52,080 nucleotides of DNA from a virus. The notes below the pieces were generated by a model. It was given only the letters and a program-made list of their open reading frames with translations. It searched no databases and was not told the DNA's origin. Positions within the stretch are counted from its first letter, which is position 1. Each line of letters opens with the position of its first letter. The position numbers and the translations under genes are program-made. The DNA lies in IMG/VR virus record IMGVR_UViG_3300030329_003551, positions 2,452-54,531 of that record; one strand, written 5' to 3'. Positions 20,645 through 47,350 of this stretch are shown in pieces.

Positions 20645-20653
20645 GGAGATACT

Positions 20654-20923: not shown

Positions 20924-20924
20924 T

Positions 20925-21071
20925 ATGCTACAAGTACTTACAGCTAATTGGGAATGGTTTTTATTAGGACTTTATGTTCTAGAGAAAGCTATTAAACTTA
21001 GTCCATCTAAAAAGGATGATTTAGTATGGGATATGGTATTAAAGCCAATCGTAGATAAAATAAAAGGATAA
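20925..21071 (+). CDS. Small membrane-associated protein (48 aa), possible holin
   Basis: ATG at 20925 follows AAAAGGAGATAAT. The product begins MLQVLTANWEWFLLGLYVLE, a probable membrane-inserting helix with a Trp belt, then polar KLSPSKKDDLVWDMVLKP. This arrangement is common in small phage membrane proteins annotated as putative holins. It follows the coiled-coil gene directly. The holin role is a guess from size, hydrophobicity and neighbourhood. Confidence 0.55.
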   Translation: MLQVLTANWEWFLLGLYVLEKAIKLSPSKKDDLVWDMVLKPIVDKIKG

Positions 21072-21073
21072 TT

Positions 21074-21220
21074 GTGACCTTTTACGGTTATATTAGTAAT
21101 TATAAATGGGAGAGATCTTACTCAATTCCTTCATCGTTCTCACAGCCGAGTTACTCGTATAGTAATGTTACTATAGCTTATGAGGTCTCTCCCTATAATT
21201 CGGAGACAAAAGATGCCTAA
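21074..21220 (+). CDS. Possible 48-aa Tyr/Ser-rich protein, GTG start
   Basis: A frame from GTG 21074, two bases after the previous stop and with AAAGGA upstream, to TAA at 21220, overlapping the nozzle start by 8 bases. It encodes a polar, aromatic peptide including FYGYISNYKWERSYSIPSSF and SQPSYSYSNV. The coupled spacing supports it. However, the same bases hold a strong RNA structure (21108-21193), so the frame could be incidental. Confidence 0.4.
   Translation: MTFYGYISNYKWERSYSIPSSFSQPSYSYSNVTIAYEVSPYNSETKDA
21108..21193 (+). ncRNA. Compact structured element with an 8-bp closing stem
   Basis: GGGAGAGA (21108-21115) pairs with TCTCTCCC (21186-21193). Inside, CTCA/TGAG extends the stem after an internal loop, CGAG/CTCG makes a hairpin at 21147-21157, and TATAGTA/TACTATA makes a 7-bp hairpin at 21158-21175. 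The element is 86 nt long and ends 20 bases before the nozzle start codon. There is no T-arm, so it is not a tRNA. It may be a cis-acting RNA ahead of the tail nozzle gene. Confidence 0.5.
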
Positions 21221-24053
21221 AAAAACATTTACATTGAACGGTTTTGCAGGAGGATTAAATACAGATTCCGATCTTTCTGATGTTGTATCTCAAGGCAATG
21301 GACAAGATGAAGTTGCTGAACTGAATAATTTATTTTTAGATGAAGGAGGAAAAGTTCACGGAAAGCTTCCTATAGGTACAGCGAATGATTTGACTGTTGA
21401 AGCTCAAACATCTGGAGCAGAGAATATGCTAATTCATGATAGTAAGATTTATAATAAAGTAGGAGTATATAAAGTTGGAGAAGATGTTAATTATAGCGGG
21501 TTAGCTGATTACCAATCTATAAATATGAAAACAACAAATACTGGAGAAGTTAATCCAACCACTCCAGATTCTGAATCAGTTTCTCCTGATATGGAATTTT
21601 GGTCTGAAAGGAAAACAGGGGACGCTAATGAGTGGGAGAATATAACTATGTTTTTAGGTAAAAGCTCTCCTATTAACACTTTAAGTAAAGGCCAGATATG
21701 TCCATTAACTGACGCTTCTGTTTCTTTTAATTGGCCTGAAAGACATATAGGTAGTTATATGGACTTGGATGGAGGTGGTGATACTCAGCACAACTATTGG
21801 CATTCAAGAGCTATCATCACCAATGAAGTTCCATTTAGTGGAGATGGAGGAGCTAATGTAGCTCAATGGAAATACGCTTCTGAATCAGAAATGCTAGCTG
21901 GCGAACATGTTGATGAATACAATACTGGGGAAGAGCAGACTCAAGCTTTTGCTCGATGGATGGCTTCAACTAATCCTAATTCTAGCTTTGCGGTTACAGG
22001 CGAAGGATGGGAAGTAGGCGATGAACTAAGTACTACTAATTTTTATTTAGATTTGCAGGGAGGTTCTGACGTTAATGTTGATACTACTAATTTTGACCAT
22101 TTTCAATATTGGAAAAGTAGGTATAGTGCTGGAGATCATGTATGTGAATGTAATGCTTGGTTAGGATTTCAATTAGCAGGGAATGCAATGGACGGAGCAA
22201 CACCAATAACCTATTATTGGTACAATAATGTTGGCACTGAAGATGATAATGGTCTTTTTGGTCAGTCTGTACCTATTCAAATTGTTGGGAAAGATCTAAT
22301 TGTTGATATTAAGATTACGCATCAAGAAGGTTTATCTGAATTGAGATTTGCCCTTGAATCTCATTATAATGCTAATACGACAGCTCATGGGCAAGAGGAA
22401 TTTTGTAGAACTTGGTCTTTGTCAATTGGAACGCTGGTAAATGAAGGAGCCACTAATGATTTTGTTAGATTTACATTACCCTGGGACACTGCATATCACG
22501 AAGGAGCAAATTATAGAAATGATGTAATTAATAAATTTATAATTATCCCCGTATATAGTACTGATCCTGATTTAGGTGATGCTAGCGATTTAACAGCTAA
22601 TCCATCTTCAGCTGCACCAGTTTGCATAATGAAGATAAGAGAACTTACTTTTGCTCCAGCAGGAGGAAGAACAGATGTTGGTTGGTTTGAGAATTATTTT
22701 ATACTATCATCTTCATCTATAAATGCAAAAGGTATACATTCTATTCCTGTTGATCTTCCAGATAGTGGAACACCTGGAACTGCAGCTGGACTTGTTAATC
22801 GATTAGGAGGAAGAACTGCTAAGCTCAAAATCTATAAAACTTCCGCTTCAGGTACTCAAGGCAATATATATTACCAGCAAACAAATGAAGATGGCTCTCC
22901 TCTATCAGATAAATACCTACTGGCAGAATGGTCTTATGCAAATGGATGCAGAAAAGGGAATTCTGCAGATGGCGCTTGGACAGCTTGGCAGACAGGATCT
23001 AGTCCTAACTATGTAGAGTTAGAGTTTGATGACCCTCCTACATCTAGTACTTATATTTTAGAGTCTGGTTATCCTGAAGGAACTGAGCATGTTGACGCTG
23101 AATGGAAGCATGCTGCGGTTGTTGGAAGAACTGCGTATATAGGTAATGTAAAGCAGCCTACAACTGGATCGTTTGAAAGTAGTAAAATACTAAAATCAGC
23201 TATAGGTAAATCTGCGGGATTTCCTAACCTTCAGTATATTGATGTTGAATTTGGGGGGGATGGAATTACCCATATGGAAGGTATTGGTGATAGGTTGTTT
23301 GTTTTTGCTTCAACTCAAATGGTGGTTATAAATGTTGCTCAAGATATTGAATTTGTAGAGGCCTCTTTCCCTCACTTAGGAGTAAATGAAGCAAGGCAAG
23401 TATGCAAAGTTGGAGAAGGGTTAGCTATTGTAAATGCCTCGGGAGTTTATTTGTTTGATGGTGATCAAATAAAGGATATTAAAGTTGAAAAAAATAGAGA
23501 GATAGTTATTCATCCTACATCATGCGCAATAGCTTATTCAGCTCTTCTAAAATATTTATTAGTTTGGGGATGGAATAATGACGATAATGATGTAGCTGTT
23601 TATAGTCTTAAAACAGATAGTTGGGTTGGAGCTAGATTGGATACTATGGCTCTTCCTACTTCTGAAGTTGTAGCAGGGCCAAATGGAAGGGCGTACTTTT
23701 GCGTTAATACAGATGAATATTATTTAGGAGCTGTTGATAATGATTCAGGTACAGATAAATCTACTATATTAAGGACTGGTAAATTATCTATGGGGGATAT
23801 AGCAAGAAATAAAAAGTTTTATAAGATTTACATAAATGTCACAAACCCTAATGGCTACACATTGTATTGGAGCACTACTACTACATCTAGTTGGACAGTT
23901 GCTTCTAATAGCATGTCTACAGGTAATAATGAAATAGCGCTATCAGGAGCATCTGGAAAATATATAATGTTAAAATTGGAAGGCTCTAGTGCTAGAACTG
24001 ATTTTGAAATGGGGGAATTAAGTATTATATATAGAGAGAAAAGCATAAAATGA
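21213..24053 (+). CDS. Putative tail nozzle / DNA-stabilisation protein (946 aa)
   Basis: The start is ATG at 21213 (MPKKTFTLNGFAGGLNTDSD) with CGGAG eight bases upstream; the frame is open from 21180 but without a site there. The opening resembles P22 gp10-type and crAss-like stabilisation proteins, and the C-terminal half has repeated blades such as YIDVEFGGDGITHMEGIGDR, QMVVINVAQDIEFVEASFP and GEGLAIVNASGVYLFDGDQ, consistent with a beta-propeller that plugs the tail. An extra beta domain of about 350 residues fills the middle. It precedes the ejection-protein genes. Confidence 0.7.
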   Translation: MPKKTFTLNGFAGGLNTDSDLSDVVSQGNGQDEVAELNNLFLDEGGKVHGKLPIGTANDLTVEAQTSGAENMLIHDSKIYNKVGVYKVGEDVNYSGLADYQSINMKTTNTGEVNPTTPDSESVSPDMEFWSERKTGDANEWENITMFLGKSSPINTLSKGQICPLTDASVSFNWPERHIGSYMDLDGGGDTQHNYWHSRAIITNEVPFSGDGGANVAQWKYASESEMLAGEHVDEYNTGEEQTQAFARWMASTNPNSSFAVTGEGWEVGDELSTTNFYLDLQGGSDVNVDTTNFDHFQYWKSRYSAGDHVCECNAWLGFQLAGNAMDGATPITYYWYNNVGTEDDNGLFGQSVPIQIVGKDLIVDIKITHQEGLSELRFALESHYNANTTAHGQEEFCRTWSLSIGTLVNEGATNDFVRFTLPWDTAYHEGANYRNDVINKFIIIPVYSTDPDLGDASDLTANPSSAAPVCIMKIRELTFAPAGGRTDVGWFENYFILSSSSINAKGIHSIPVDLPDSGTPGTAAGLVNRLGGRTAKLKIYKTSASGTQGNIYYQQTNEDGSPLSDKYLLAEWSYANGCRKGNSADGAWTAWQTGSSPNYVELEFDDPPTSSTYILESGYPEGTEHVDAEWKHAAVVGRTAYIGNVKQPTTGSFESSKILKSAIGKSAGFPNLQYIDVEFGGDGITHMEGIGDRLFVFASTQMVVINVAQDIEFVEASFPHLGVNEARQVCKVGEGLAIVNASGVYLFDGDQIKDIKVEKNREIVIHPTSCAIAYSALLKYLLVWGWNNDDNDVAVYSLKTDSWVGARLDTMALPTSEVVAGPNGRAYFCVNTDEYYLGAVDNDSGTDKSTILRTGKLSMGDIARNKKFYKIYINVTNPNGYTLYWSTTTTSSWTVASNSMSTGNNEIALSGASGKYIMLKLEGSSARTDFEMGELSIIYREKSIK

Positions 24054-24247
24054 GAAATAAAACAACAAGACATACAAGGCATACAACTAAATTAAAGGTT
24101 TCTCGTTTATACGATACTAAAGGTACAAATAAAGATAGTATATTGCAGTCTAAGAAAGATGGAAGAGCATATAAGCAGTTAAATATAGATGGACAAAAGT
24201 TCTTTATAAGATTACATAATGTTCATACAAGGAAGGAAAAAGATTAA
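24050..24247 (+). CDS. Small basic protein (65 aa)
   Basis: Starts at the ATGA that ends the nozzle gene and ends at the TAATG of the next. It is very basic, beginning MRNKTTRHTRHTTKLKVSRL and continuing through SKKDGRAYKQL to a C-terminal strand-like FFIRLHNVHTRKEKD. It may bind DNA or act as a minor virion or assembly protein. No family recognised; overlaps on both sides support the call. Confidence 0.6.
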   Translation: MRNKTTRHTRHTTKLKVSRLYDTKGTNKDSILQSKKDGRAYKQLNIDGQKFFIRLHNVHTRKEKD

Positions 24248-26082
24248 TGTCAAAAATATATTACAAAGATCAAGGTGTTATTAGAAGTGATTTGCGTCAT
24301 GAATTAGGTATGATTGACGAGAGTTTAAAGGAAGATTTAGGCGAAATAAAGGATTATAGTAAAATTTTGGATGAGCTAGAAGAATTCTCTGCACTCAAGC
24401 AGGAGGAAAAAGATATTAAAGATGAACAAGACGCTTATGCTGAGTCGCAAGGATGGAAATGGGACGATGAGAGAGACTCCTATATAGGGATAACCAATGA
24501 TGGACAAAAATTTCAAGTTGATCCAGAAACAGTATCAACTCTAGAATCCTTACAACTCTTCAGTGATCTGTTTGATAAAGATTCAACAGAGGCATTAGTT
24601 GATAAAAAAGGTAAGTTAAAATCTAAGTATGAGCTTCAAGATATCGATGAACAAAAACAAAATTGGTTTGAAAGGACTGGAGAAAAATTTCAAGACTTGC
24701 GAGAAAAAAGACAGGAAAAGAGAATGTCTAAAGAACAAAAGGAGATAGAAAAAGCTTTAGATTTAGCCAAGAAAGAAGTTAAGAAGAAGGCTGTAGATAC
24801 AGTTGTAACTTCAGGTCAAAAAGCTATTGAAGTTATCGATAAGGAATTTAAAGTTACTTCATCAAAGTCTCTTGACCCATTATCTGATGAAGAACTATTA
24901 TCATTTGAGCAACAGGCAGGATTTAGTGCTGAAGGATTATCCAGTAAGCAAGTGAGAGAATACTTATCTAAAGAAGATAGACCTTTTAGCAACAAGGAAT
25001 TAGAAAGAGCTTATAAGTACAAAGATAAAAATTGGGCTCCAGACGAAACAGTAAATAAGGTTGCTTGGGAGTTTGCAAAAGATAATCCTAAAGATAATAG
25101 TGATTTAAGCAATACAGAGAAAGCATTATATAAGGCTATGTATGGCCTTGACCAAAGCACAGCTTTTAAAGCCTCTCATCAAATAAGAAATGATATTAAA
25201 TTAAGATTACATTCAGAAATGTTTGAAGGTTTTATTACAGGGAGAGATAAAAATGAAGCTCATACAGAAATAGTTGAAATTAATGGTAGAGATGCTCTTG
25301 TAACTAAATCGGAAAAGGAGTTTATTGATAAATATGGAAAGATTGCTGCTGACTACATTCATGAGTTTACAATAAAAACACGTGGTTCAGTAGAGATAGA
25401 CGAAGCAACGGGTTTACCTAAGTATGGATTTTTTGCAAGCATGTTTAGTACTATAGGAACATGGGGCAAGGCAATCGCTGCACCTTTTATGAAAGGTGGT
25501 AAAGTTGCTGCCTTCGCAGGGAAAGCTGTTCAAGGGTTAGGAGCAATGGGTTCTGCAATGGGAGCAGCTTCGCCTATTCTGAGTATGGTAGCAAACGTAC
25601 TGGGAAAGAGAAAAGAGCATAAAGCTAAGGTAAAAGCTGCTAAAGCAAGATCTAAAGCTTTGGGCACAGCTATTAGGCAGGCAGATAAAGCAAGGCATGA
25701 TGTCAATACACGAGCTTATACTCAATTTGAAGAGATGGCAGAAAGAGCGGATGAACAAGCTACAGCATTGGGTGAAGCAACTGGAGAACGATATGAAGAC
25801 TTGTCTGAAACTATAGGTAAGATGCAGAAGCAAACAAAAGGTCTTAAGACTGGGGCAGTTGATATGATGAGAGATGAAGGGCAGGAGATGATTGAAGAAC
25901 AACATGAACAGTCTTTTGGTAAAATGGGCGACATGTTTAAAGATCAGATGGATGCTGCGCTAGGCCAGACAAAAAGTTATTTTGAAAAAGCTCAATCAAA
26001 TATAACACAATGGACTAGAGAGAAAGCGGAAGCAGATAGACAAGCTAGGAAAAAATTTAAATGGTATAAAAATTTATTTTAA
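24247..26082 (+). CDS. Putative internal virion / ejection protein (611 aa)
   Basis: A long, mostly helical, highly charged protein (for example EKFQDLREKRQEKRMSKEQK). It is interrupted at about residues 405-457 by a Gly/Ala-rich hydrophobic region (KVAAFAGKAVQGLGAMGSAM, then AASPILSMVANVLG) that could span the inner membrane. A further coiled region follows. This pattern, helical ends around a membrane-active Gly/Ala segment, is typical of podovirus ejection proteins that build the channel into the cell. It heads a five-gene set ending at 39793. Confidence 0.65.
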   Translation: MSKIYYKDQGVIRSDLRHELGMIDESLKEDLGEIKDYSKILDELEEFSALKQEEKDIKDEQDAYAESQGWKWDDERDSYIGITNDGQKFQVDPETVSTLESLQLFSDLFDKDSTEALVDKKGKLKSKYELQDIDEQKQNWFERTGEKFQDLREKRQEKRMSKEQKEIEKALDLAKKEVKKKAVDTVVTSGQKAIEVIDKEFKVTSSKSLDPLSDEELLSFEQQAGFSAEGLSSKQVREYLSKEDRPFSNKELERAYKYKDKNWAPDETVNKVAWEFAKDNPKDNSDLSNTEKALYKAMYGLDQSTAFKASHQIRNDIKLRLHSEMFEGFITGRDKNEAHTEIVEINGRDALVTKSEKEFIDKYGKIAADYIHEFTIKTRGSVEIDEATGLPKYGFFASMFSTIGTWGKAIAAPFMKGGKVAAFAGKAVQGLGAMGSAMGAASPILSMVANVLGKRKEHKAKVKAAKARSKALGTAIRQADKARHDVNTRAYTQFEEMAERADEQATALGEATGERYEDLSETIGKMQKQTKGLKTGAVDMMRDEGQEMIEEQHEQSFGKMGDMFKDQMDAALGQTKSYFEKAQSNITQWTREKAEADRQARKKFKWYKNLF

Positions 26083-26095
26083 GGAAGGTGACTAA

Positions 26096-27613
26096 ATGGG
26101 GATATTAGACGGTTTATTGAATGATATAAACAAAGCAAAACAAATGCAGTTAAATAGAGATGAGAGAAAAGCTGAAAGAGAGCTTACTCTGCTTTTAACT
26201 GAAATGAAGATGAATTTTGAGAGGGAAGAGAATATAGATAGGCATAATGCAGATATGACAGAACGATATAGTGCCTCTAACTTAACAAAGTCTCCTTCTG
26301 GCAGATATGTCTTAAAAGATAATTACGATCCTTCTGATGTGCCAAGTGAGATAGCGAAGAGAGCTAGTATAGATTACCAAGCTTTACGTGATAGAGGTCT
26401 TCCTGCAACAGATGATGAGGAATTGAATAGACTTACTATTAGCATGTATGATAAGGGGCAAAAAGCAGGTTTGAGTTTTAGCAGAGTCAGCCTTTCTAAT
26501 CAAGAATTATCTCCCTTTATGATAGATGTTAGTCCTACTGGATTGACTTCGGATGATTTTAATCAATTTAGATTAGTTTACCAGTCTGCAGGTGGCGCTG
26601 AAAGTACAGAGATGTTAGAGTATTTGATAAATGATTTGGGAATTATAGATAGAGCAGATGTTTTTGAAGATAATGTAGGGAGACCTACTATATATGGACC
26701 AGATGGCATTAAAGATAATACTAAAGCAGCTCTTATTGACAATGCTTTAATTGGATTTAAGTCAGGCTTAAGAGATAATGAAGAATTTATGACAAGTTTT
26801 GAATATGATAAACGTGCGAAAGATGATGCTATGTTTGGTATAAATTATGCTAATGCTATTGCTCAAAGTATTCCTTCTCAACAAGCAGAGAAAAAATTAC
26901 TTGATAGAGGTAAGGTGTTCTGGAGTGGTTTACAGCCTCAAATATTAGAAGGCGAAAGAGTTGTAATGTGGGATAATGAGCTTATAAAATTAAAAGATGT
27001 TACGGATGAAATTACTCATAAAAGAGGACATTTTAAAGGCCTGTCAGATTCTGAATCTAAAATATTGTCAAACAGAATGGATCAGTTTGCGCAAATTACA
27101 CAAGACGGTACAGGCTTTCAGTTGTTAGTAGAAGAGTTATTAAGTCAGCCTGATCAAGGAGCTAGTGAATTAGCTTTAATCTCTAAATATATAAGTCCTT
27201 CTTTAGCAAAAACAATTATGTCAGGTGTGCAAGAATGGAGTAGAGTTTCTAGGGTGGGGCAGGCAGCACTGAAGTATTATAAAGATCCTGAGAGCATTGA
27301 AGAAGTTAGGATGAAAGATGATCGGCTTCAAGGATTGCTCGTTCAAACAGGAATTAAGCAAGATCTAATTAAATTAAGGCATATCCCAGAAGGAAGCTCT
27401 GAGTATAAAGAACTTGATGATTTACTTTTGCAAAAAATAACTAAGATGGCAAAATCATTAATGAAAGAAGGAGGAGCTCAGCCTTATTTAGATGAAAATG
27501 GAAATACTGCATATACATGGGATAGCCCAGAAGCGGAAGCAAGATATAATCAGTTGTTTGATTGGTTAGAACTAGAAGATGCTACCTTTAAATTTAACAA
27601 AGGAGTTAACTAA
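26096..27613 (+). CDS. Putative internal virion protein (505 aa)
   Basis: AAGGAAGGTG precedes the ATG. The start, GILDGLLNDINKAKQMQLNR, and the following charged helix (DERKAERELTLLLTEMKMNF) suggest a coiled coil; the remainder is globular and helical with no catalytic motif seen. The last 60 residues contain QPYLDENGNTAYTWDSPEAE. It is coupled to the next gene by TAATG. By location it belongs with the ejected proteins. Function inferred only from context. Confidence 0.55.
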   Translation: MGILDGLLNDINKAKQMQLNRDERKAERELTLLLTEMKMNFEREENIDRHNADMTERYSASNLTKSPSGRYVLKDNYDPSDVPSEIAKRASIDYQALRDRGLPATDDEELNRLTISMYDKGQKAGLSFSRVSLSNQELSPFMIDVSPTGLTSDDFNQFRLVYQSAGGAESTEMLEYLINDLGIIDRADVFEDNVGRPTIYGPDGIKDNTKAALIDNALIGFKSGLRDNEEFMTSFEYDKRAKDDAMFGINYANAIAQSIPSQQAEKKLLDRGKVFWSGLQPQILEGERVVMWDNELIKLKDVTDEITHKRGHFKGLSDSESKILSNRMDQFAQITQDGTGFQLLVEELLSQPDQGASELALISKYISPSLAKTIMSGVQEWSRVSRVGQAALKYYKDPESIEEVRMKDDRLQGLLVQTGIKQDLIKLRHIPEGSSEYKELDDLLLQKITKMAKSLMKEGGAQPYLDENGNTAYTWDSPEAEARYNQLFDWLELEDATFKFNKGVN

Positions 27614-28461
27614 TGTCAAGTTTTTTAGAGAGATTTAAGAGTAATAAAGAAAAGAATGAGTCTTTAATAGCAATCGAGCTAAAAGCTGATTCTATCCCTG
27701 ATAGTATTCAGAATGAAGAAAGTAAGAAGGTAGCTCAAAGAGAAGTCTTAAAAAATATAGGAATCAACTTAGAGCATTCAGGGTCATTAGAAAAATTAGA
27801 TTTAGAAGATATTGCTTTTGGAGCTATGGAAGAAACTCTTAAAGAAAAGAAAAGTGATATTATTACTAAAGTTGCTAAGCTTAGTGAGCAAAGAGATTTG
27901 TATGAATCAGAAATGGGTGAATATAAATCAGACATGGCTATATTGGATGAGATTGGGGAGAATAGAAAGTCTTATGAAGTGCTTAAAGATATTGTTTATG
28001 AGGAAGCTTTCCCTACTATAGGAGAGAGACTATTCGGATCAAGTAATAAAGAGTTAGGCGATAAATATGAACAAATTATAAATGTTCTCAACAGACTTGA
28101 TTCTAAAGAGGAGGCTATTGATTCTAAATGGAATATTTCCAAAGAACATACTTCTGAAGTTCAGTCTTTATATGAAAGTATTGCTGGAAGAGGAGAAGGT
28201 GGTGCAACTTTTTATACTGAAGTAAGAGATCCTGAAAGATATCATGGAAAAGGTGAAGCTGTTTCAAGGAAAACAAGATTAGAAAATCTACATAGTCAAT
28301 TTGCAGAAGCTGATAAAACGTTAGCTGAATTATTACCTATGGTAGATGATTATAGTAATATATTTACAAAAGATGATTTAGATGATTTACAGAAAAGCTT
28401 AGGTGATATTGATGAAAGAGATTTCAATATGTTGTTTGAAAAAGAATTATCAGAATTTTAA
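27613..28461 (+). CDS. Putative coiled-coil internal virion protein (282 aa)
   Basis: Starts at TAATG. Almost wholly helical and acidic, with likely coiled coils at about residues 85-125 (KVAKLSEQRDLYESEMGEYK) and 240-270. A short Gly-rich interruption lies near AGRGEGGATFYTEV. No catalytic signature or membrane span. It precedes the putative RNA polymerase gene by 12 bases and may be its virion partner or part of the ejection conduit. Confidence 0.55.
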   Translation: MSSFLERFKSNKEKNESLIAIELKADSIPDSIQNEESKKVAQREVLKNIGINLEHSGSLEKLDLEDIAFGAMEETLKEKKSDIITKVAKLSEQRDLYESEMGEYKSDMAILDEIGENRKSYEVLKDIVYEEAFPTIGERLFGSSNKELGDKYEQIINVLNRLDSKEEAIDSKWNISKEHTSEVQSLYESIAGRGEGGATFYTEVRDPERYHGKGEAVSRKTRLENLHSQFAEADKTLAELLPMVDDYSNIFTKDDLDDLQKSLGDIDERDFNMLFEKELSEF

Positions 28462-28473: not shown

Positions 28474-31400
28474 ATGCCCACATTAGATAAATTATTAGGA
28501 CATCATTTAGATATAAACACGGCTCAAATGTCTGACCTTGAAAGTATATTTAGTACGAAAGATATAAGAAATGCAGGAGGTATTGATCCTGGGGGATATA
28601 AAGCCGATTATAGTATTTTTGATGTCCCTGAAGATTACGATATACCTGAAGAAAAAAGTGCCGCTCTTGAGCTTGTAGGGCAAACATTATGGCAAGGTTT
28701 AGATACAGCTTTATTTGGGTTGCCAGGCTTAGGAATAGAGAAGTTGTCTCCAGGAGCTACTGAAGAATACTTAACACCAACCACTAAAGCTGGTAAAGTA
28801 GGTGCTGCTGTAGGTGGAACATTAGGTTTTGTTTGGGGTGCTCCTATGAAACTTGGTGCAAAAGCTGCTCAATTAGTTGCCAAACCTATTATTAAGAAGG
28901 CTGGGCATGAAACATTACAGAAGCAAGTTAAAAAATCTATTCAAGCTGTTAATGCAGAAGCAAAAGAAGGTGAATTTGCCTCTAAAGCTGCTAAGGCTAT
29001 ACTAAATAAAGACTTAGGAAAAAAACTTACAGGATTAGCTCATAAATCAAGATGGGATCAAGCAGCAGGAAAAGGTGTTGCTAAGAATTGGGCAGACACC
29101 TCTACAAGAGCTATACAACAAATAACTAGCTTAGCTGTAAAGAATAAAGATTTAACATCTGGTGAGGCAGCTCTTATTGTAAAATCATTCAAAAATAATT
29201 TAACAACACGACCAATGCAGGATATTGTTGATATAATAATGAAAAGACATCCTAATAAGTTTGGTTTTGTTGCTGGGAGTGCTATACATGAAGCAGTTAT
29301 GTTTGGATTGATTGATGCTGCAATGGAAGGTGTGCATTCAACTAAAGAAGGTAGAGATTATGATCCTTTTGCTCCTTTATGGGGTGTTGGTATTGGTGCT
29401 GCATTTGGTGGTTTAAAACTTTTACCTGCTGCTGGTAAGTCTTCTATAACTTCTGCAGATTTTACATCTGGATTTAAAGCTGTATTTGCTAAGAACCCCT
29501 ATAAAAAAATGGATAGCGATAAACTATTTGGCAATGCAAAGATTATTGGTGATAGTTTTAAATCAAACAAAGCCTTATTTGAAATGTCTGAAACAGGATT
29601 AAATAGAACTCCTTGGATTATTGAGCATGGAGGATATACTATCAATTTAACAAATCCTAAGAGTATAGGTGGTTTGTCTGAAACAGAGGCAGCTAAGGTT
29701 CTAAGAGAAGCTTTGTCTAAAGAGAGAGTTAGATTTGGTAGACAGATGATGAAAGAATCTATAAAAGAAGATTTCAAGAGTACATTAGCAAACTGGAAAA
29801 GAGTTATAGGTGGTACTGTTATAATGAATGCTAGAACTATTCTAGATATGCATAGGGGACATGAAATACCTCCTGAAGATATTATGACTTCTATATTAAT
29901 AGGTGCTTTTATTAATAGGAAAGGTAGACCTAAAGATCCAGAAATGAATTTAGCTAAGATGCAAAGAATTAGGAATGGTTTAAATGCCTATGGAGAAACA
30001 CAGTATGCTATGTTAGATATGATTCCGACATTAAGAAGAGGTCAACATGAACATATACAGCCATTAACTGATGTATCTTTTAAAAGTTTAAGAAAAAAAT
30101 CAGAAGATTTAATGTTAATACATGAAACTCCAGAAGCTGTTGAGACTATGAGCAAAGATGGTAGTCCTAGTTTAGCCTCATCTCAGAAAGCCTTCCCTCT
30201 ATTTGATGAATTTTATATGTACCTAGATGGATCGAGAGGGAAGAAGTATATAAAACCAAAAGCATTAGTGACAGAAAAAGAAGCTGCGCAAATAGAAACT
30301 ACAATTAGAAGTTTGGAGTTTGAGGGAACTAAGGTAAACGATATAACAGAGTTTAGATCTATGCTTCAAGCTGGAACAAATAATATAACAGATAAACTTG
30401 AGTATTTAGTTAAGCAAGGTGTTCATAATGCTGGTAATTCTGTAATAGATGTTGCTATCAATTCTCCAGAGTTATCAAATATTGGTACTGTTCCTGAGAA
30501 AATATCAATAAATCAATCTCTAATTAATAGAATAAAAGATGGTAAAGTTGAATTTCAAGGCGGTGGCAAACTATCTGTAGAGGAGTCATTAAATGCTATA
30601 GCTAAATTTCAAAAATTATTAGACTTTTCTAATTCTGCGAGATTAAGTAGTGCCAATCAAAAGAAACCTTTGTGGGAAGTTACTACAGGCAGAGAGATTA
30701 GAGATATAATAGAACACATTAAGAATTCTGAAAGGGATATTAATACCTTATTTAATATAGGTAGAGATAATCTTAAGTTTTCACTAAATGATTTAGATTT
30801 AGTTGCTCCTCAAATTATTATGAGAAATGTAAGTAAGAGTATAGATAAATTTTCTAAGATATTTGATGATGTTGATAATCCTGATTTCATTGAACTTAGA
30901 AATATACTTTACAAAATGGGTCTTAGTAAAAAGGAAATAGACAGTAAGGATAACATATTCGATATTATCCCTCCTTTTCATAAAATAACTGTAAAGAAAA
31001 CAGAAGAAGGTTTTAGAGGAGATAAAGAAGAGGCTATACTAAGAACTGTACTTGGTATTCTTGGAGCAAAAGGAAATAGGTCAATTAAAACCGATCCTCT
31101 TGCTAAGGAAATTACTATAAATCCTGCAGATGTTCAGTCTTTAGAAATGTTTTTAAACAAAAGCGGTTTAAATACTGATGTTGAAATGTTAGATTACTTC
31201 AGGAGCACAGTTACACAAAAAGTATTTTCTGATATAGTTAAAGATTCTAAAGTAAATCAAAGAGATATAAATGTATTGTCAGAGTTAGCAGATTTAGGAG
31301 TACCTCTTTCCACTTATTCTCCCATGGCAGAAGGCGGTACAGGTTTTTCAGTAAGTAAAATAGAATATATAGGACCTCGTTATAAAACTTATGTAGATGC

Positions 31401-34400
31401 TGTAAAGGAGTACAATAGATATATAGATGATTTAGTAAATGTTAGAGGGGTGAATAAAGAAGGTAAAAGCTGGATTTCTGAATCAAGACAGATAATTCAA
31501 GCTGATAGACATGATGTTAAAATAATCAGAGATATAATTAGAAGAAAAAATGCTCAAACTTCTCAGGAAGCTCAGGAGTCTTTAATAGATTTTGTTAAGG
31601 CTATGGAACCTACTGATACTATACGACATGGTTTAATAAAATATTTACAAAATTCAGAAAGACCTGAAACATTATTAAACTTTATGTTAGGTAATGGGAT
31701 GGTCTCTACAAAAAAAAGAGATAACATTATAAAGTATGTTTTTGATCAGAAGGCTATTAATGATAATAAGGACAAGTTGAAAGACTTTATGTCTAAATAC
31801 GGTGTTCATTTAAATGATATCCAGAAATTGCAAAATGAAGTCGATATGGAGATCAATACTTTAAATGATATGAAGATTAAAAAGGAATCAGGCGCTATAT
31901 CTCAACAAAGATTTTTCGAAAAGTATTGGCCAGGAGAAGGTGGTTTTGGAAGTCAACATCAAGAAGCTTCAGTTCAAAATGAAATTATACAGAAGGCATT
32001 ATATAGAAGTGATAAGATTGGGATATATAGAGATAATCCTGTAGAAAACTTAATGACGACAATGAGTTTTAAGGTAGGAAAAGATTCTGGTGGTAAGGAT
32101 ATAATTGTAGATGGTAAGACTTTAATAAAGAAAAAGCAAATAACTTCCTACAAGCGTAAGTATGATGAAGCTGTAGATGATATACAGAAAATATTAGTAC
32201 ATAGAGCAGGAGCTGAACAAGTGACCGTACTAGAGTCTAAAAGTGGGAAATTTGCAGAGTCTTCTAAAATTATCCAAAAAAATTACTTTACTGAGTTTTT
32301 AAAAGAGAATGATATTCCATTCTTGTTTACATCAGGCGATATATATTCACGTCACTGGTTTGGTAATAAAATGACTGCTAGTAAAATCAATGTATTTGAA
32401 GTACAGTCTTCTGTAAGTAATGAGAATATTAATAAAAATATTCCTGAGATTGCTAAAAATATGGTTAAGGATTTTCACAAACAGCTATTAAGCTATGAAG
32501 TAACAGGCTCAGAAGGCACTATGAAAGGCTTACAACCTATATCTATGGGTAATGCTAAGGATGTTCTTCTTGTTCCTATGGATTATCATGCAAAAGTAAC
32601 AGAATTATTCAATAAAAAGATTTATGATGTTTATCTCAAGAAAGCAAAAGCAGCAAAAGACACTAAAGCTGTAAATAAGTTAGAGTCTATGAAGGAAATT
32701 CTAGATAAAAGTACAACTTGGGGAGAATCACATGTAGATGCTATGAGATCTATAGTTATAGCAGAAATGACAAAGGGTAAGGATGTAGATAATTTTCTTA
32801 ATGTAATTCATGGTAGAGATTTAGAAGACATAGGTAAAAGATTTAGTTTATATAACACACCTTCATTTAAAAGAATTGACAGATCTCTTGTAAAAAAGCT
32901 ATCTAAAGTACGAACAGGCAAAGATAAAACTTTATTAGAGGCTTTTTTTAAACGTAAGATAAATTTTGTTGAATGGAATGACAAAGATTATGCTCGAATT
33001 TTTGATAGAAAAGTTGTAAAAGATGCTTTTGAAAAAGCTCAAATAGAGATAAAGGATATGATTGGCTCCAGAGAAAATGAGTCTGGGTTTGATAGTATTT
33101 CTTTTATTAGTAAGGACTTTAAAAGGTTCTTAGAACTATATTATGGAGTAGCATCTAGAGATGGTGGAGACGGTTCTGCGGTTTTTAAACCTATAATATC
33201 ATCAGGGGGTAAGGATATGTATATGTTTGCTAAAACAGTATTCGTATATGATCCTGATATGCAAATAGATGTTTTTAATAAGAACAAAAATTTAGATGTT
33301 TTTCTTACTAGAAGTGCTGATAAAATGAAATCTGGCATTTCTGAAGTAGAGTCTAAAAATCTAGGAAATCCTAATAGACCTGTGTATATAGATAAAACAG
33401 TAGAACAAATAGTTAACTCTAAACAAGGCGAACTATTGAAATATATGAAATCAATTCCTATGAAGGGAATTGGAGTAAGTACTATACCAGAAAATAGAAT
33501 GGCAGGTTCAAATTCTATATCTAATACAAATTTCATGACATCTTCTGAAGCTGGAGAATTCTTTAATACTTATCAAGCTCCTCATTTAACTCGTATTTTA
33601 GGTAATGTAGGCAACACTACATCACAAGGACTAGCTCAGAAGTTTATGGGCGATTCTATGTGGAGAAGATTAGCTTTACTTAAATTAAATCAATTGAACC
33701 CTAATATCACAATGGAGCAAATGCAGAATTCTCCTGAAGGTTTGAAAAATTTAGGAGCTCATTTGCAATTAGCAGCTATGGGCGCAGATCCAATGATGTT
33801 AGGTCCTGATGTACTAGTGAATACTATTAAAAAACAATTTATAGATCCTATAGTAAGTCCAAAGTTAGAAACTCCTGATGGTGAATTAATGGGCGGTAAG
33901 TTTGTTCTGAAACAGAGCTTTAAATTTAGGGATTTAGCTCCTACGGTTAGAAAAGGTGAGAAAGATAAAACTGAGATTTTACCAGGGGAAATAATGCTTC
34001 CTAATTATGCAGAGACATTGCCTATCGATTTCAAAAATCCAGATATGGAAATAAAAGTTATTGATAGCAAGGGTAGAGGTATAGATAAAAACTTAAAACA
34101 AACAATGGAAAGTTTACTTATAAGTGTAGATGGTCTTAAGAAGGGAAAAGAAGTTGATGAGTACTTTGAATTTTTAAGTCAGAATGGAACTTTAGGTTTC
34201 CTACATAGTGAAATTAAAAGATTAGATCCTGATTTATCTATAGGCATCGTATCTGTTAGATACCCTAGAACTGCTCCTAATGATATGGCTATATTACGAT
34301 TAAAAGGTTTCTTAGGTAAGGATCATGGTAATACAGGTATAGTGAATGATTTTGATGTATTAAATATATTTGAAGGTGATTATGATGTGGACGAAGTAGA

Positions 34401-37008
34401 TTTTATGCATGTTGCAAATAGAGGTACATGGAATCATATAAGTAGAGTTAAGCATCATTGGGTTAATACTAAGGATCCAAATCATTACAAACCCCCTCCA
34501 CAAGGTTTAGAATTAATGACTAATGGTGCAAATAATTCTAACTGGAATACATTTGATGCTAATAACAGGGTATTCAAGAAAGGTATAGGAACTGTTCAGA
34601 AAACTTTAAGACTTGTAAATCATGTTGCAAGCTTGGGTGTTAAAAACACTGAAAAAGATTCAAAAACTTTTGGTATGAATGAGCTTATGAAAGTTAAAGA
34701 TAAGGATGGCAAAGAATTTGTAATAGCTGTTGATTATGATAATGCAGATTTCTTTAATAGGACAGCTTTGGAATCACAATTAATCATTGATTACTGGAAA
34801 GGTGTTAATCCTAATATAACAACAGATATGATGAGCTGGAGAAATGAGTATTTATTTCCTAAATGGGAAAAATCTATAGGAAAAGAAAATGCAGCGTCAT
34901 TAATGGATAGGCAGGATAATCATTTATTAAAAGGGCCTCATAATTCTAGAATAAGAATATTTAGAAAGTTTGGAAAAGAGGGAGAAGTTCCATTGAGCAG
35001 CTTAGATAGAGAGATTATACAGACTTTAATGAGAGAGCATAGTAACTTTTTACGTTTAGAGAAAGAAGTGTATGATGGATCTGGTCAGAGTTCAAGTGCT
35101 ACTTATAAAGATATCATAGATCATGGAACAAGATATTTTACTCACTTAAGAAATATAAATAATAAAGTATTTTATAGGATTAGAAATAAAATGTCCAATC
35201 ATGAAGATTATAAATCGTATTTTGATCCTTATAGGAGATATAAATCTACAGCTGAATGGAAATTAAAGAATTATAAAGGAAAATTTAGAGATCAAGTTGA
35301 AAAAGAAATCCAAACTGAAGAAAAATTAGATGCAAATCAAGGACGTTATAGTTATAAATGGTACGATCGAAGCCCTTTTATAGGGGAGGTTTTAGATAAA
35401 GCTAAAGAAATAAGTGCAGTTGGCGGGAAACAAGGTTCTGTAACTGAAAGAATATTTAGAGAGATAGTTCAAAAACGACCTTTAAGTTTAGATAAAAATG
35501 GTAAGACAGAAACTATTCCAGATGGCAATCTTTTTAATCAAATGGAGTTTGCAAAGAGTTTAATACTTGATGCAGAAACTCATTTTGGAAACACTCCTAA
35601 TGAATTCCTAGCTGATATCCTTCCAAGACTTACTAAGAACGTTAATTCTGATGTAAAAATTATTAAATATTACAAGAGATTAATAGATAGTATCACTAGA
35701 AGCACTGATATGCCCCAAAAAACGAAGGATACAAGGATAGATGCCTTAGATACCTACATTAAAGAAAAAGAGGCTAATTTAAGGGATTTTCTACCAAAGA
35801 AGTATTTAGAGACTGGAGATATTAAGTATTTAGAAACTATTAAGACAGTTAATATAACTCGCGAAGCTGATATACTTGAGGGAACAAAACAACTTTATAC
35901 TTTATATGGGCCTGCAGAAATGTTTGGACCCGCAGAACATACTGCAGAATTTTACAATAGGTTAAAAGAATTGAGAAGTGAAACTTATGAAAGATATAAC
36001 GAATATCATTCATCTGGCCAATCTGCTCCTTATAAAGATATGACCTATTTAAATAATAAGATTTCCAAAATGAGAAGTGAACCTTTACATAATATAAAAG
36101 ATATAGAAACTCAGCTAATGGAAAATTTATCTAAGGCTTATGATGATTTTAAAATGCCTTTCTTATATCAGTACGCTATGCCTACTGCTGCTGAGACTAC
36201 TATAGGGATGTTTGAAGGAACTCCATTGGCTGTAGCTACAAAACCTTCTTCAAGATTTAAAAGAGTTTTAAGATTCTTAGTTGATAAACATAATACGGCT
36301 ACTAATAAGCAGGAAAAGCTTCATTTTAAGGAAGTATTAGAAAATTTAAGTGCAAGATATACTGCATATTCTAATATGTTTGATAAGAATTTTTCATTAA
36401 TACCTTTAGCTGATCAAGATGTATTAGGTATGATTAATAATGTTCCAGGCTTTAGTAAAAGATTAGTAGGTACATTTGACAGATATGAGTCATTCAAAGT
36501 AGATAAAAATATGTTTTCTAGAGATGTATTTGGAATGGGATCAGAATATGACTCTAATGTATCATTCTTTAGAAGATTATTAGGCGATGCTTTTGGTAAG
36601 AAACAAGAAAGTAATGTTAAAGAATTGGGAGAAGTGTTATCTTATACCCATCAATTAGCGATGGAAAATAATTATATGAATCCTGTTTCTTATTTTCAAA
36701 TGGTGGAGAATGTAAGAACTAGATTGAAGAAATTAGGGTTAGATAAACCTCTAACTACAGGTATTGATGGTAACACATCAAATAAATTAAGTCCTCATAG
36801 TTTAAGTCCTGAGCTTGCTTTATTAGCAGGAGAGTCAGGAGGTGTTTCAATAGCGCCTATGGGCTTATTAAGTAAGTATAGAATGAATATGTTGCAAAGG
36901 TTTATTAAGCAGGGTAAAGATATAAAGAAATTGCAGAAAAAAGATGGCGAAACATGGGAAGATGCTATGACAGAGCATAGAAAAGCTGGTCCATGTATCC
37001 CAGAATAA
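28474..37008 (+). CDS. Giant ejected protein with two double-psi-beta-barrel RNA polymerase signatures, candidate virion RNA polymerase (2844 aa)
   Basis: The most striking catalytic signature is EGDYDVDEVDF: D1969-Y-D1971-V-D1973 fits the DxDxD metal loop of crAss-like virion RNA polymerases (DxDGD in cellular beta-prime). It is preceded, as in that barrel, by ILPGEIMLP (about 1835-1842) and an R-x-P element, VRYPRTAP (R1929, P1931). Upstream, FDSISFIS (1539-1546), FKP (1571-1573), FAKT with K1587 and SADK with K1617 fit the beta-like barrel that supplies two lysines. The N-terminus has Gly/Ala hydrophobic stretches near 105-130 and 295-325, like ejection proteins. So this may be a packaged RNA polymerase fused to membrane-translocation segments. 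Family match is by eye. Confidence 0.7.
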   Translation: MPTLDKLLGHHLDINTAQMSDLESIFSTKDIRNAGGIDPGGYKADYSIFDVPEDYDIPEEKSAALELVGQTLWQGLDTALFGLPGLGIEKLSPGATEEYLTPTTKAGKVGAAVGGTLGFVWGAPMKLGAKAAQLVAKPIIKKAGHETLQKQVKKSIQAVNAEAKEGEFASKAAKAILNKDLGKKLTGLAHKSRWDQAAGKGVAKNWADTSTRAIQQITSLAVKNKDLTSGEAALIVKSFKNNLTTRPMQDIVDIIMKRHPNKFGFVAGSAIHEAVMFGLIDAAMEGVHSTKEGRDYDPFAPLWGVGIGAAFGGLKLLPAAGKSSITSADFTSGFKAVFAKNPYKKMDSDKLFGNAKIIGDSFKSNKALFEMSETGLNRTPWIIEHGGYTINLTNPKSIGGLSETEAAKVLREALSKERVRFGRQMMKESIKEDFKSTLANWKRVIGGTVIMNARTILDMHRGHEIPPEDIMTSILIGAFINRKGRPKDPEMNLAKMQRIRNGLNAYGETQYAMLDMIPTLRRGQHEHIQPLTDVSFKSLRKKSEDLMLIHETPEAVETMSKDGSPSLASSQKAFPLFDEFYMYLDGSRGKKYIKPKALVTEKEAAQIETTIRSLEFEGTKVNDITEFRSMLQAGTNNITDKLEYLVKQGVHNAGNSVIDVAINSPELSNIGTVPEKISINQSLINRIKDGKVEFQGGGKLSVEESLNAIAKFQKLLDFSNSARLSSANQKKPLWEVTTGREIRDIIEHIKNSERDINTLFNIGRDNLKFSLNDLDLVAPQIIMRNVSKSIDKFSKIFDDVDNPDFIELRNILYKMGLSKKEIDSKDNIFDIIPPFHKITVKKTEEGFRGDKEEAILRTVLGILGAKGNRSIKTDPLAKEITINPADVQSLEMFLNKSGLNTDVEMLDYFRSTVTQKVFSDIVKDSKVNQRDINVLSELADLGVPLSTYSPMAEGGTGFSVSKIEYIGPRYKTYVDAVKEYNRYIDDLVNVRGVNKEGKSWISESRQIIQADRHDVKIIRDIIRRKNAQTSQEAQESLIDFVKAMEPTDTIRHGLIKYLQNSERPETLLNFMLGNGMVSTKKRDNIIKYVFDQKAINDNKDKLKDFMSKYGVHLNDIQKLQNEVDMEINTLNDMKIKKESGAISQQRFFEKYWPGEGGFGSQHQEASVQNEIIQKALYRSDKIGIYRDNPVENLMTTMSFKVGKDSGGKDIIVDGKTLIKKKQITSYKRKYDEAVDDIQKILVHRAGAEQVTVLESKSGKFAESSKIIQKNYFTEFLKENDIPFLFTSGDIYSRHWFGNKMTASKINVFEVQSSVSNENINKNIPEIAKNMVKDFHKQLLSYEVTGSEGTMKGLQPISMGNAKDVLLVPMDYHAKVTELFNKKIYDVYLKKAKAAKDTKAVNKLESMKEILDKSTTWGESHVDAMRSIVIAEMTKGKDVDNFLNVIHGRDLEDIGKRFSLYNTPSFKRIDRSLVKKLSKVRTGKDKTLLEAFFKRKINFVEWNDKDYARIFDRKVVKDAFEKAQIEIKDMIGSRENESGFDSISFISKDFKRFLELYYGVASRDGGDGSAVFKPIISSGGKDMYMFAKTVFVYDPDMQIDVFNKNKNLDVFLTRSADKMKSGISEVESKNLGNPNRPVYIDKTVEQIVNSKQGELLKYMKSIPMKGIGVSTIPENRMAGSNSISNTNFMTSSEAGEFFNTYQAPHLTRILGNVGNTTSQGLAQKFMGDSMWRRLALLKLNQLNPNITMEQMQNSPEGLKNLGAHLQLAAMGADPMMLGPDVLVNTIKKQFIDPIVSPKLETPDGELMGGKFVLKQSFKFRDLAPTVRKGEKDKTEILPGEIMLPNYAETLPIDFKNPDMEIKVIDSKGRGIDKNLKQTMESLLISVDGLKKGKEVDEYFEFLSQNGTLGFLHSEIKRLDPDLSIGIVSVRYPRTAPNDMAILRLKGFLGKDHGNTGIVNDFDVLNIFEGDYDVDEVDFMHVANRGTWNHISRVKHHWVNTKDPNHYKPPPQGLELMTNGANNSNWNTFDANNRVFKKGIGTVQKTLRLVNHVASLGVKNTEKDSKTFGMNELMKVKDKDGKEFVIAVDYDNADFFNRTALESQLIIDYWKGVNPNITTDMMSWRNEYLFPKWEKSIGKENAASLMDRQDNHLLKGPHNSRIRIFRKFGKEGEVPLSSLDREIIQTLMREHSNFLRLEKEVYDGSGQSSSATYKDIIDHGTRYFTHLRNINNKVFYRIRNKMSNHEDYKSYFDPYRRYKSTAEWKLKNYKGKFRDQVEKEIQTEEKLDANQGRYSYKWYDRSPFIGEVLDKAKEISAVGGKQGSVTERIFREIVQKRPLSLDKNGKTETIPDGNLFNQMEFAKSLILDAETHFGNTPNEFLADILPRLTKNVNSDVKIIKYYKRLIDSITRSTDMPQKTKDTRIDALDTYIKEKEANLRDFLPKKYLETGDIKYLETIKTVNITREADILEGTKQLYTLYGPAEMFGPAEHTAEFYNRLKELRSETYERYNEYHSSGQSAPYKDMTYLNNKISKMRSEPLHNIKDIETQLMENLSKAYDDFKMPFLYQYAMPTAAETTIGMFEGTPLAVATKPSSRFKRVLRFLVDKHNTATNKQEKLHFKEVLENLSARYTAYSNMFDKNFSLIPLADQDVLGMINNVPGFSKRLVGTFDRYESFKVDKNMFSRDVFGMGSEYDSNVSFFRRLLGDAFGKKQESNVKELGEVLSYTHQLAMENNYMNPVSYFQMVENVRTRLKKLGLDKPLTTGIDGNTSNKLSPHSLSPELALLAGESGGVSIAPMGLLSKYRMNMLQRFIKQGKDIKKLQKKDGETWEDAMTEHRKAGPCIPE

Positions 37009-37018: not shown

Positions 37019-39793
37019 ATGAGAAAACCTGGTGGCGGTTGTCCTGATATATTAAAAGGATTGACAGGTGAAATGTATGATATAGGGTTGCGCTATAAGA
37101 AAGATAAAGTAATGAGTAAGCAATTCGGATATGAAATTGACAATGTTATAAAAAAAGTATATGAAGATGTATTTGATGTACCTTTTGATGCAAGACATGC
37201 TGTTAATTATACTAAAGGAAGACTACGAACTTTTGAAAATAGACTCTGGAGAATAAAGGATGCTGTAAAGAATGACAAGCTGTCAAGTAAGTTTGGTTCT
37301 TTATTTTATGCGCCATCATCTCTCGTTAAATCCAATCCTCAATTAGGTGTATTGATGGACAAACTTCATAATGTAAATTTAGAATATCAAGGTAGAAATA
37401 GTATGCATGATAGGCAGTTTGAAAATATTCTTACATTTATGAGGAAGGAAATGCTTGTTAATAATTATAATAACAGTGAGATGTTTCCTAACATGAGCGC
37501 TAAAAGAAGACTTAGAAAAGCAATTAAACTTGCTAATCAATTTGATAAACAAGTAGAAGAATTATCTGTTAAGGCTGCTCAAAGTAATCTGCAAGTAGAT
37601 AAAAACAATTTAACAGCAGCTTTAGAGGCAGAGCATAGATTTTATACAAATGGCGAAGGTAAAGTATTCAATGAAATGGTTAAAACTATAGAGAAGACAT
37701 TACCTAAACTTGAAGCAGAAGCTTTAGATAAATGGAGGTTGAAATATAAAGAGCTTGAAAAGAAAAGAATATCTAGACCTCAGTTTGAAGCAGAAAAGAA
37801 AAAAGCATTAAATATTGTTTTAAGTGATAAAATAAAATCTGAACCCATGCGTAATGCAGTAGCAGAATATGTTGTTTTAATGGACAATATGTACGATACT
37901 TTAATAAAAGGGGTTAATGCTTATGGTAAATCACTAAAAGCAAGTATGAGGGATAAGTATGACGATGCTGTTGTAGACAAAATTGTAGATGGTATTATAA
38001 CAAAAATAACTCCTGATAAACAAAGAGGTTATTTCCCTCATTATAGAAGAGTATTAAATAAAGATTTTCTACAAGATCTTATGCCTCATATGCAGAGAGT
38101 ATCAGACACTTTAGCTAAAGAATTTGAAGGAAATAAAACAGCAGTTGATGATGCGATGGATCAGTTAAAAGGTTTTGTTACTGGAAGAGCTAAAAGTAGG
38201 GAGAAGTTAGATTTAGGCGAAGGGGTTGATGTCACTAAAGAATATTCAAGAAACTTTTTTACTACAGTTAAAAGATATGTAGATGAGATAGATAGATTTA
38301 ATATGATGGCTCATGCAGATCAGTATACAAGAGAATCTTTAGTTGCTGCAAGAGAATTATTTAAATCAGGAAAACCTATGGATAATTATGCTAGAGCTAC
38401 TGTTGAAATGATGAAAGATATGAATTCCCGCATGAAAGGCAGCTATGGAATGGAAAATGAGACTGCTGAATTAATGATGAAATCATTATTAGCTTTGGAA
38501 TTTACATCTAAATTAGGATTTAATCTTAGATCTCCATTTAAAAATTCTGTTCAAGGTTTATTAAATATTGTACAGTTTTCACCGCAAGTTCTATTAAATA
38601 ATAAAAAGTTTTACGAGCAACGTACTGATGTTAGTGGTAGGAAATTAAGTTTATATGTCGATGAATTAATGGAAGAAGCGGGATTTTTGTTTGCTGAAAA
38701 CGCTCCCCCTGAATTAATAGAGGCGAGGTTTAAAGGTGGAAGCTTTACTTCTAAAATCAAGATAACAGATAATGAAACTGCTGAGTTCAAAAAACCTTCT
38801 TGGTTTTCACCTATACATCAGAAAATAACTACCTTATCTGGGAAAAGTGGTGTTATCATGGGTAAAGTGGAAAATTTTAATAGAAAGACTACGTTTAAAT
38901 TAGCATTTGGAGAGATGTATGATAGGTTAGATAACTCAACTCATTTTAAGCAAAGATTAAGAGATACTAAAAAATGGTCTGAATTGCAAATCGATAATCA
39001 TATAAAGCATTTATCTAAAAATTATGCATTAAGAAAAACAACTCTTCTTCATTTTGACTATACAGATTTAGGTAAAGCATCTTGGATAACTCATCCAGCG
39101 GGTAGACTTTTGGGACAATTCCAGCATTATGGAATAAAATTCTTTGAACATAATATTGACTTAGCAAGAAATGCAAAAGATGATATTATGGCAGGAGAAA
39201 TATTAGGTGATAGAGCTAGGAAAGCATATTCAATGGCAATGGTTTATGGAATGGCGCCTGTAATAGCTTCTGCTATCACTGGTGTTGATTTCAGTAATGT
39301 AGTTGAGCATGATATGGCTGAAAAATTTAAGAAACTTGCAGTGTTGTTCACAGGTGATGACGAAGATATTAAGAAAGCATATTATGGCAAAGGTGTTGCT
39401 ACAGGTCTTCCTTTTATAGGTGCTCCAGTTATATCTGATGCATTAGCAGTAGGCAATATACTTAACTTTATTGACATGGATAATGAGACTATGGAAAAAA
39501 TGCTCATAGGTTATGAAGATTATTCATTAAAATCAGGTGATAAAAAAGTATATGAATTAATGCGTACTTTAAATGTTCAGTTGGGAAGAGGTTATTACAG
39601 AACTCTTCCAATGTTAAGGGAAGGTAAATTTGGATCAGCATTGCAATATGAATTAGGTTTATATCCTACAGCAGAAAGCAGAGAGCTTAAAAAGAAATCG
39701 CAGGAAGTAGCTAAAGATGTATTGCCTCCAGATTTATTAGAAGCTTTACAATATCTTGAGGCCCATAGAGAGAAGGCAGTTTCTAAAAGATAG
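37019..39793 (+). CDS. Putative large internal virion / ejection protein (924 aa)
   Basis: Starts 10 bases after the giant protein with AAGGAG upstream. It opens MRKPGGGCPDILKGLTGEMY and is mainly helical. KQRGYFPHYRRV (about residue 335) resembles a motif in large phage internal and polyvalent proteins. A hydrophobic region near 740-760, YGMAPVIASAITGVDF, and another around GVATGLPFIGAPVISDAL could insert into membrane. It ends the late block. It probably leaves the capsid with the polymerase candidate at infection; no enzymatic motif was seen. Confidence 0.6.
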   Translation: MRKPGGGCPDILKGLTGEMYDIGLRYKKDKVMSKQFGYEIDNVIKKVYEDVFDVPFDARHAVNYTKGRLRTFENRLWRIKDAVKNDKLSSKFGSLFYAPSSLVKSNPQLGVLMDKLHNVNLEYQGRNSMHDRQFENILTFMRKEMLVNNYNNSEMFPNMSAKRRLRKAIKLANQFDKQVEELSVKAAQSNLQVDKNNLTAALEAEHRFYTNGEGKVFNEMVKTIEKTLPKLEAEALDKWRLKYKELEKKRISRPQFEAEKKKALNIVLSDKIKSEPMRNAVAEYVVLMDNMYDTLIKGVNAYGKSLKASMRDKYDDAVVDKIVDGIITKITPDKQRGYFPHYRRVLNKDFLQDLMPHMQRVSDTLAKEFEGNKTAVDDAMDQLKGFVTGRAKSREKLDLGEGVDVTKEYSRNFFTTVKRYVDEIDRFNMMAHADQYTRESLVAARELFKSGKPMDNYARATVEMMKDMNSRMKGSYGMENETAELMMKSLLALEFTSKLGFNLRSPFKNSVQGLLNIVQFSPQVLLNNKKFYEQRTDVSGRKLSLYVDELMEEAGFLFAENAPPELIEARFKGGSFTSKIKITDNETAEFKKPSWFSPIHQKITTLSGKSGVIMGKVENFNRKTTFKLAFGEMYDRLDNSTHFKQRLRDTKKWSELQIDNHIKHLSKNYALRKTTLLHFDYTDLGKASWITHPAGRLLGQFQHYGIKFFEHNIDLARNAKDDIMAGEILGDRARKAYSMAMVYGMAPVIASAITGVDFSNVVEHDMAEKFKKLAVLFTGDDEDIKKAYYGKGVATGLPFIGAPVISDALAVGNILNFIDMDNETMEKMLIGYEDYSLKSGDKKVYELMRTLNVQLGRGYYRTLPMLREGKFGSALQYELGLYPTAESRELKKKSQEVAKDVLPPDLLEALQYLEAHREKAVSKR

Positions 39794-39794
39794 A

Positions 39795-39818: not shown

Positions 39819-39832
39819 AATTTGAATATTAA

Positions 39833-47349: not shown

Positions 47350-47350
47350 T

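Follow-up and report, generated by a model that had tools for sequence, protein, structure and literature searches.

In this analysis we consider a giant gene of an uncultured phage, which lies on the forward strand at 28474..37008 of a 52,080-base stretch of DNA, henceforth the window, belonging to the 54,531-base IMG/VR record IMGVR_UViG_3300030329_003551. Judging from its predicted fold, the encoded protein of 2,844 amino acids (aa), here called the giant, very probably contains an RNA polymerase (RNAP) core related to the polymerases of cells, of crAss-like phages and of RNA interference. We hold with good confidence that the giant is a single-polypeptide, DNA-dependent two-barrel RNAP, which would be made late, packaged, ejected and then used for transcribing the first phage genes. 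Moreover, the gene for this polymerase is swapped as one block together with its conserved neighbour and the tail/ejection genes beside it, an observation that is new here. The relevant features of the giant are the following.

28474..37008, forward strand: giant protein of 2,844 aa, probable single-chain two-barrel RNAP with long N- and C-terminal extensions (39 distinct homologues in its subfamily; profile homology to B and C over the full length)
28474..32640, forward strand: N-terminal extension, aa 1-1389, with conserved Gly-rich blocks at 105-125 and 265-321
32641..35793, forward strand: RNAP core as modelled, aa 1390-2440 (AlphaFold2, Foldseek, VIA)
33076..33489, forward strand: predicted beta-like double-psi beta-barrel region (DPBB-B), about aa 1535-1672, boundaries approximate (model strands; invariant K1587 and K1617)
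33232..33234, forward strand: K1587, predicted first invariant active-site lysine (103 of 103 sequences)
33322..33324, forward strand: K1617, predicted second invariant active-site lysine (103 of 103)
33856..34461, forward strand: predicted beta-prime-like double-psi beta-barrel region (DPBB-A), about aa 1795-1996 (model residues 406-607 against RPB1 356-524 of 7lbm)
34258..34266, forward strand: RYP element, R1929 and P1931 (P in 103 of 103, all subfamilies; R in 38 of 39 in subfamily A)
34378..34392, forward strand: DYDVD, predicted metal-binding loop with D1969, D1971 and D1973 (103 of 103; a loop in the model)

The open reading frame (ORF) and all the motifs named in the initial annotation are present in the translation: FDSISFIS at residue 1539, FKP at 1571, FAKT at 1585 (with K1587), SADK at 1614 (with K1617), LPGEIMLP at 1836, RYP at 1929 and EGDYDVDEVDF at 1967, which includes DYDVD at 1969-1973. 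Taken by itself, a DxDxD motif proves nothing, since about 0.9 would be expected by chance in such a protein (0.86 at the Asp content of the giant); DYDVD, the sole DxDxD of the chain, becomes significant because of its conservation in relatives and the predicted fold. The same annotation had described Gly/Ala-rich segments of membrane type. Gly-rich blocks in the N-terminal part are indeed conserved among homologues, but their membrane character is unsupported, because the strongest mean hydropathy over 19 residues in the giant is only 1.41.

A scan with aa 1801-2067 retrieved 23 loci and a scan with the core alignment 39 distinct homologues of 20-52% identity, which constitute subfamily A. 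Throughout these 39 proteins, K1587, K1617, P1931 and the three aspartates D1969, D1971 and D1973 are invariant, with R1929 present in all except one. Portal-related phages lacking a match to the subfamily A profile (apart from one weak match) have a giant of 2.9-3.2 kaa at the same place, and nine giants that were reached via the portal gene only, with no use of the motif, all possess DxDxD; the forms found in such portal-linked giants, QRDNDGD and PQDADFDFD, are nearer to the cellular NADFDGD. Subfamily B is characterized by the motif QRDNDGDH and subfamily C by PQDADF/YDxDKS. Profile homology extends over about 2,000 columns in each comparison (A-B, E 8.6e-36; A-C, E 1.3e-24; B-C, E 7.4e-31), and in the alignments the two lysines are paired, as is the aspartate region; in A-B, a gap of 3 residues adjoins the motif. 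At least 109 distinct giants were found in metagenomic viral contigs. In a core alignment of 103 sequences (37 A, 31 B and 35 C), the subfamilies share about 15% identity and 10 of the 482 well-filled columns are invariant, including those of K1587, K1617, P1931, D1969, D1971 and D1973; every one of the 103 keeps DxDxD, so the motif is not lost in close homologues, in line with the initial annotation. As a separate observation, the giants of loci L018 and L021 contain about 110 extra aa between the two barrels, inserted just ahead of RxP and missing in their near relative L019.

The core of aa 1390-2440 was modelled with AlphaFold2 from 38 sequences, giving a single model of part of the chain with a mean predicted local distance difference test score of 80.7 and a predicted template-modelling (TM) score of 0.79. 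Foldseek against the PDB ranks first 6vr4_A, the virion RNAP of phage phi14:2 (E 2.6e-8, probability 1.00), with maize RDR2, QDE-1 and Arabidopsis RDR2 next in order. Single-chain two-barrel RNAPs account for every one of the seven matches at E<=0.001, which argues that the giant is a two-barrel RNAP as well. VIA gives its highest scores to QDE-1 (Z 16.0; 473 residues, 5.5 Å) and RDR2 (Z 15.9), then to 6vr4 (Z 12.4; 622 residues, 5.0 Å), a gp64-type phage RNAP (12.1) and gp96 of phage P23-45 (10.2), the next group being the large subunits of multisubunit enzymes with Z around 8; the top 19 matches are all members of the single-chain two-barrel RNAPs. Model residues 406-607, which contain the DxDxD, align to RPB1 356-524 of 7lbm over 108 residues (3.0 Å, Z 8.1), and the motif lies in a loop that follows helix 570-575 and precedes strand 585-589. 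Both double-psi barrels claimed in the initial annotation, a beta-like one with the lysines and a beta-prime-like one with DxDxD, are thus predicted by the model, the aspartates falling at the DPBB-A loop, the fold matching phi14:2 gp66, QDE-1 and RDR2, and the key residues being invariant in the 103 proteins. The structural comparisons strongly support placing the giant in the superfamily that encompasses cellular beta/beta-prime subunits, QDE-1, crAss-like gp66 and gp64/gp96 of P23-45.

Among these relatives, QDE-1 offers a guide to function: its D1007, D1009 and D1011 bind Mg2+, K743 and K767 come from the other barrel, and the order of two lysines first and three aspartates after is the same as in the giant (PMC1750930). 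QDE-1 and RDR2, which have the highest VIA scores and share the two-barrel core, are eukaryotic cellular enzymes without the phage extensions. By homology with QDE-1 the giant should be catalytically active: D1969, D1971 and D1973 are the predicted ligands of the catalytic Mg2+, K1587 and K1617 would bind the nucleoside triphosphate and the 3' end of the RNA, and RxP would form part of the active-site lining.

The virion RNAP of phi14:2, gp66 (PDB 6VR4; KC821624 gp077, 2180 aa), resembles the giant in being a single chain with DPBB-B followed by DPBB-A, in having RIP with DFDID 39 residues later (RYP with DYDVD 40 later in the window), and in being encoded by a giant late-block gene beside other large or virion proteins. 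However, the giant has no detectable sequence similarity to gp66, even profile versus profile, and unlike gp66 it has about 1,390 aa ahead of the modelled core. The phi14:2 genome is of 100 kb against 54.5 kb for the record of the window, and its terminase, portal and capsid belong to phrog_6681, 6547 and 11589, those of the window to phrog_38, 156 and 1328. BLAST between the structural proteins of the two phages gave no significant match, the metallophosphoesterase of phrog_221 being the only family in common. The label 'crAss-like' of the initial annotation therefore holds for fold and signature, which are those of gp66, but not for the hallmark terminase, portal and capsid families, nor for sequence similarity: The phage lies outside Crassvirales and its giant is not a crAss-like family member.

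Phage P23-45 has two single-chain two-barrel RNAPs like the giant (VIA Z 10-12), gp64 (nvRNAP) and gp96 (vRNAP), the latter a virion RNAP formed by tape-measure fusion to a giant structural protein (PMC10770324). Unlike in P23-45, the portal of the window's phage is P22-like. Family searches of the giant's N- and C-terminal extensions gave no match in Pfam or PHROGs, and a tape measure protein was not identified. Another giant virion RNAP is that of N4 (Schitoviridae), which has about 3,500 aa and is injected with the DNA; it has the right-hand fold of T7 RNAP, whereas the model of the giant's core is two-barrel. PF00940, the T7-like RNAP family, is absent from the 15 records searched, in which a control search was equally silent.

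At which stage of infection would such an enzyme work? Its gene belongs to the late block and follows the portal, capsid and tail-region genes, and from this position the giant is probably carried in the virion; because the place and size of the gene are as in known virion RNAPs, packaging followed by early transcription is the best inference. The giant would be made late and packed in the head together with its 924-aa neighbour, would be ejected before or with the phage DNA, and would then transcribe the first phage genes, namely the leftward replication operon (around 40.6-51 kb), without host RNA polymerase. Alternatively, the giant could be a non-virion RNAP made during infection for middle or late genes, like gp64 of P23-45, which is also a single-chain two-barrel enzyme and appears among the structural matches. 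We consider this unlikely, given that the gene resides inside the late structural block beside tail/ejection genes and is exchanged with those instead of replication genes, while its size of 2.8-3.2 kaa, with long extensions, is like that of gp66 and gp96, gp64-type chains in the PDB having about 590 aa. A two-barrel DNA polymerase for phage replication might also be envisaged, since archaeal PolD shares the two-barrel fold (PMC10770324) and no DNA polymerase of family A, B or C was recognised in the record or in 12-14 relatives. Yet this is very improbable, for the nearest folds are RNAPs, over 440-620 residues that extend past the barrels, and the giant's gene lies among those of the virion and its exchange is uncoupled from the primase-helicase; PolD does not figure among the 50 VIA matches listed, which is no evidence of its absence. 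Hardly credible, finally, is a protein with a purely ejection or internal head role, whose two-barrel domain would have decayed to inactivity, even if almost two thirds of the chain lie outside the modelled core and the gene neighbours are of tail/ejection type, because catalytic-type residues that stay invariant in 103 proteins, while the remainder diverges down to about 15% identity, are the opposite of decay.

Several points count against the proposal of a virion RNAP acting early. No early promoter was identified in 39790-52080, where the repeats are ribosome-binding sites or chance-like, and sigma-70-like sites number 71 versus 69.3 in shuffled sequence. There is no sequence-level match to known RNAP families or gp66: Pfam, PHROGs, the PDB by sequence and phage records by tblastn gave no meaningful match to the giant, and the profile comparison with crAss-like gp66 suggested in the initial annotation revealed no kinship (hhalign of all three subfamilies, probability <1%). 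The fold match comes from one predicted model, and overall TM-scores are low (0.36) because the domain arrangement differs. The Arg of RxP is not conserved in subfamily B. Finally, the aspartates owe part of their invariance to the way in which the sequences were chosen, because several scan peptides spanned them and the cores were trimmed with the motif as reference; the lysines, P1931 and the nine portal-linked giants are free of such selection. Separately, the core profile searched against PDB sequences found only caspases, which were discarded as chance-level matches.

The distribution of the three subfamilies leads to the second aspect of the analysis, the exchange of a block that in the window comprises, besides the giant, the following features.

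37019..39793, forward strand: conserved neighbour of 924 aa, replaced together with the polymerase (phmmer homologues beside the giant in 36 A, 20 C and 6 B loci)
19496..28461, forward strand: tail/ejection-type ORFs within the exchanged block (from no match up to 39% identity against G060)

An ORF of 600-1055 aa lies immediately 3' of the giant in all subfamilies. On a portal tree of 41 sequences, the giant subfamily needs 14 changes, against a minimum of 2 and a shuffled mean of 18.5, and the starred branches force 5-8 changes per subfamily. Two pairs of genomes illustrate the exchange. G055 and G044 are 92% identical in portal, 95% in the large terminase (TerL), 98% in capsid and 87% in helicase, yet their giants are of subfamily C and B, respectively, with about 15% identity. 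Likewise, the window and G060 share 81% identity in portal, 87% in TerL and 84% in primase-helicase, but only 14% in the giants. The 924-aa neighbour has 21-22% identity across each swap (22% between the window and G060). At the DNA level, the replaced segment is essentially one block composed of the giant and neighbouring tail/ejection ORFs, both for the window (19496-39793) versus G060 and for G055 versus G044. Chimeric assembly is unlikely as the general cause of these mixtures, because they recur in many metagenomes, even if individual records were not each cleared. On balance, we lean towards interpreting the block as an exchangeable cassette of virion RNAP, large neighbour and tail/ejection genes, through which three RNAP subfamilies of about 15% identity would have been repeatedly swapped among phages with closely similar heads and replication genes. 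If so, the polymerase starting the infection would travel with the entry apparatus, in adaptation to host or envelope, and not with the genes that it transcribes; it would have to act on portable promoters or else show little specificity for promoters.

Directly 3' of the giant's stop codon, 13 B and 4 C genomes carry a near-identical non-coding element of about 100 nt (TGAAAAATAACGAAAAaGTTAT..CATATATA....GTCGCCCCACCCAGCGTATCAAATTTTGAAACCT), found at loci among L180-L263 (e.g., L222:14263-14360 and L184:14257-14355) and absent from subfamily A, window included. Possibly, it is a recombination point or a promoter at the swap junction. Other identities were discarded: no RNA fold was found for a structured RNA, Rfam gave no match, and a repeated promoter disagrees with the single copy in both full genomes examined that carry the element (G055 and G044).

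The transcription apparatus is believed to survive in an early form in single-chain two-barrel RNAPs. Phage virion two-barrel RNAPs with solved structures are known from crAss-like phages and P23-45. The giants described here would add a third phage lineage with such enzymes, unrelated in sequence and missed by searches of Pfam, PHROGs and the sequences of the PDB. They make available 103 very diverse core sequences, while near-identical phage pairs differing in RNAP allow direct tests of how specific the promoters are and of how entry is coupled with early transcription.

With regard to the remaining genes of the window, a rightward run covers 1.7-39.8 kb, with terminases, portal, capsid and metallophosphoesterase followed by large ORFs of the tail/ejection region, the giant and the 924-aa ORF. 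Leftward genes start at 40.6 kb and include a primase-helicase, a weakly SSB-like protein, a DUF932 protein and two proteins like 2OG-Fe(II) oxygenases.

Rightward block: small terminase (phrog_51)
Rightward block: large terminase, TerL (phrog_38)
Rightward block: P22-like portal (phrog_156)
Rightward block: major capsid protein (phrog_1328)
Rightward block: metallophosphoesterase (phrog_221)
43195-44928, leftward block: primase-helicase

Since no DNA polymerase of the three families was found, the phage seems, from its gene content, to leave DNA synthesis to the host. Searched with the portal, IMG/VR yields related stretches, at least 599 of them; in public phage records the relatives of the portal are only distant (22-27% identity) and the giant has none. 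Bacterial genome contigs contain no homologue of the giant either and therefore provide no clue to the host. No cultured relative of the phage was found, and neither was any report of the lineage in the open-access literature, although it may have been reported elsewhere. The two 2OG-Fe(II) oxygenase family matches of the window (40675-41445 and 48104-48814, both on the reverse strand) have no relative in G060. A further protein without relative in G060 has a laminin G/concanavalin-A-like lectin domain and is encoded at 3685-4497 of the window, with the small terminase on one side and the large terminase on the other.
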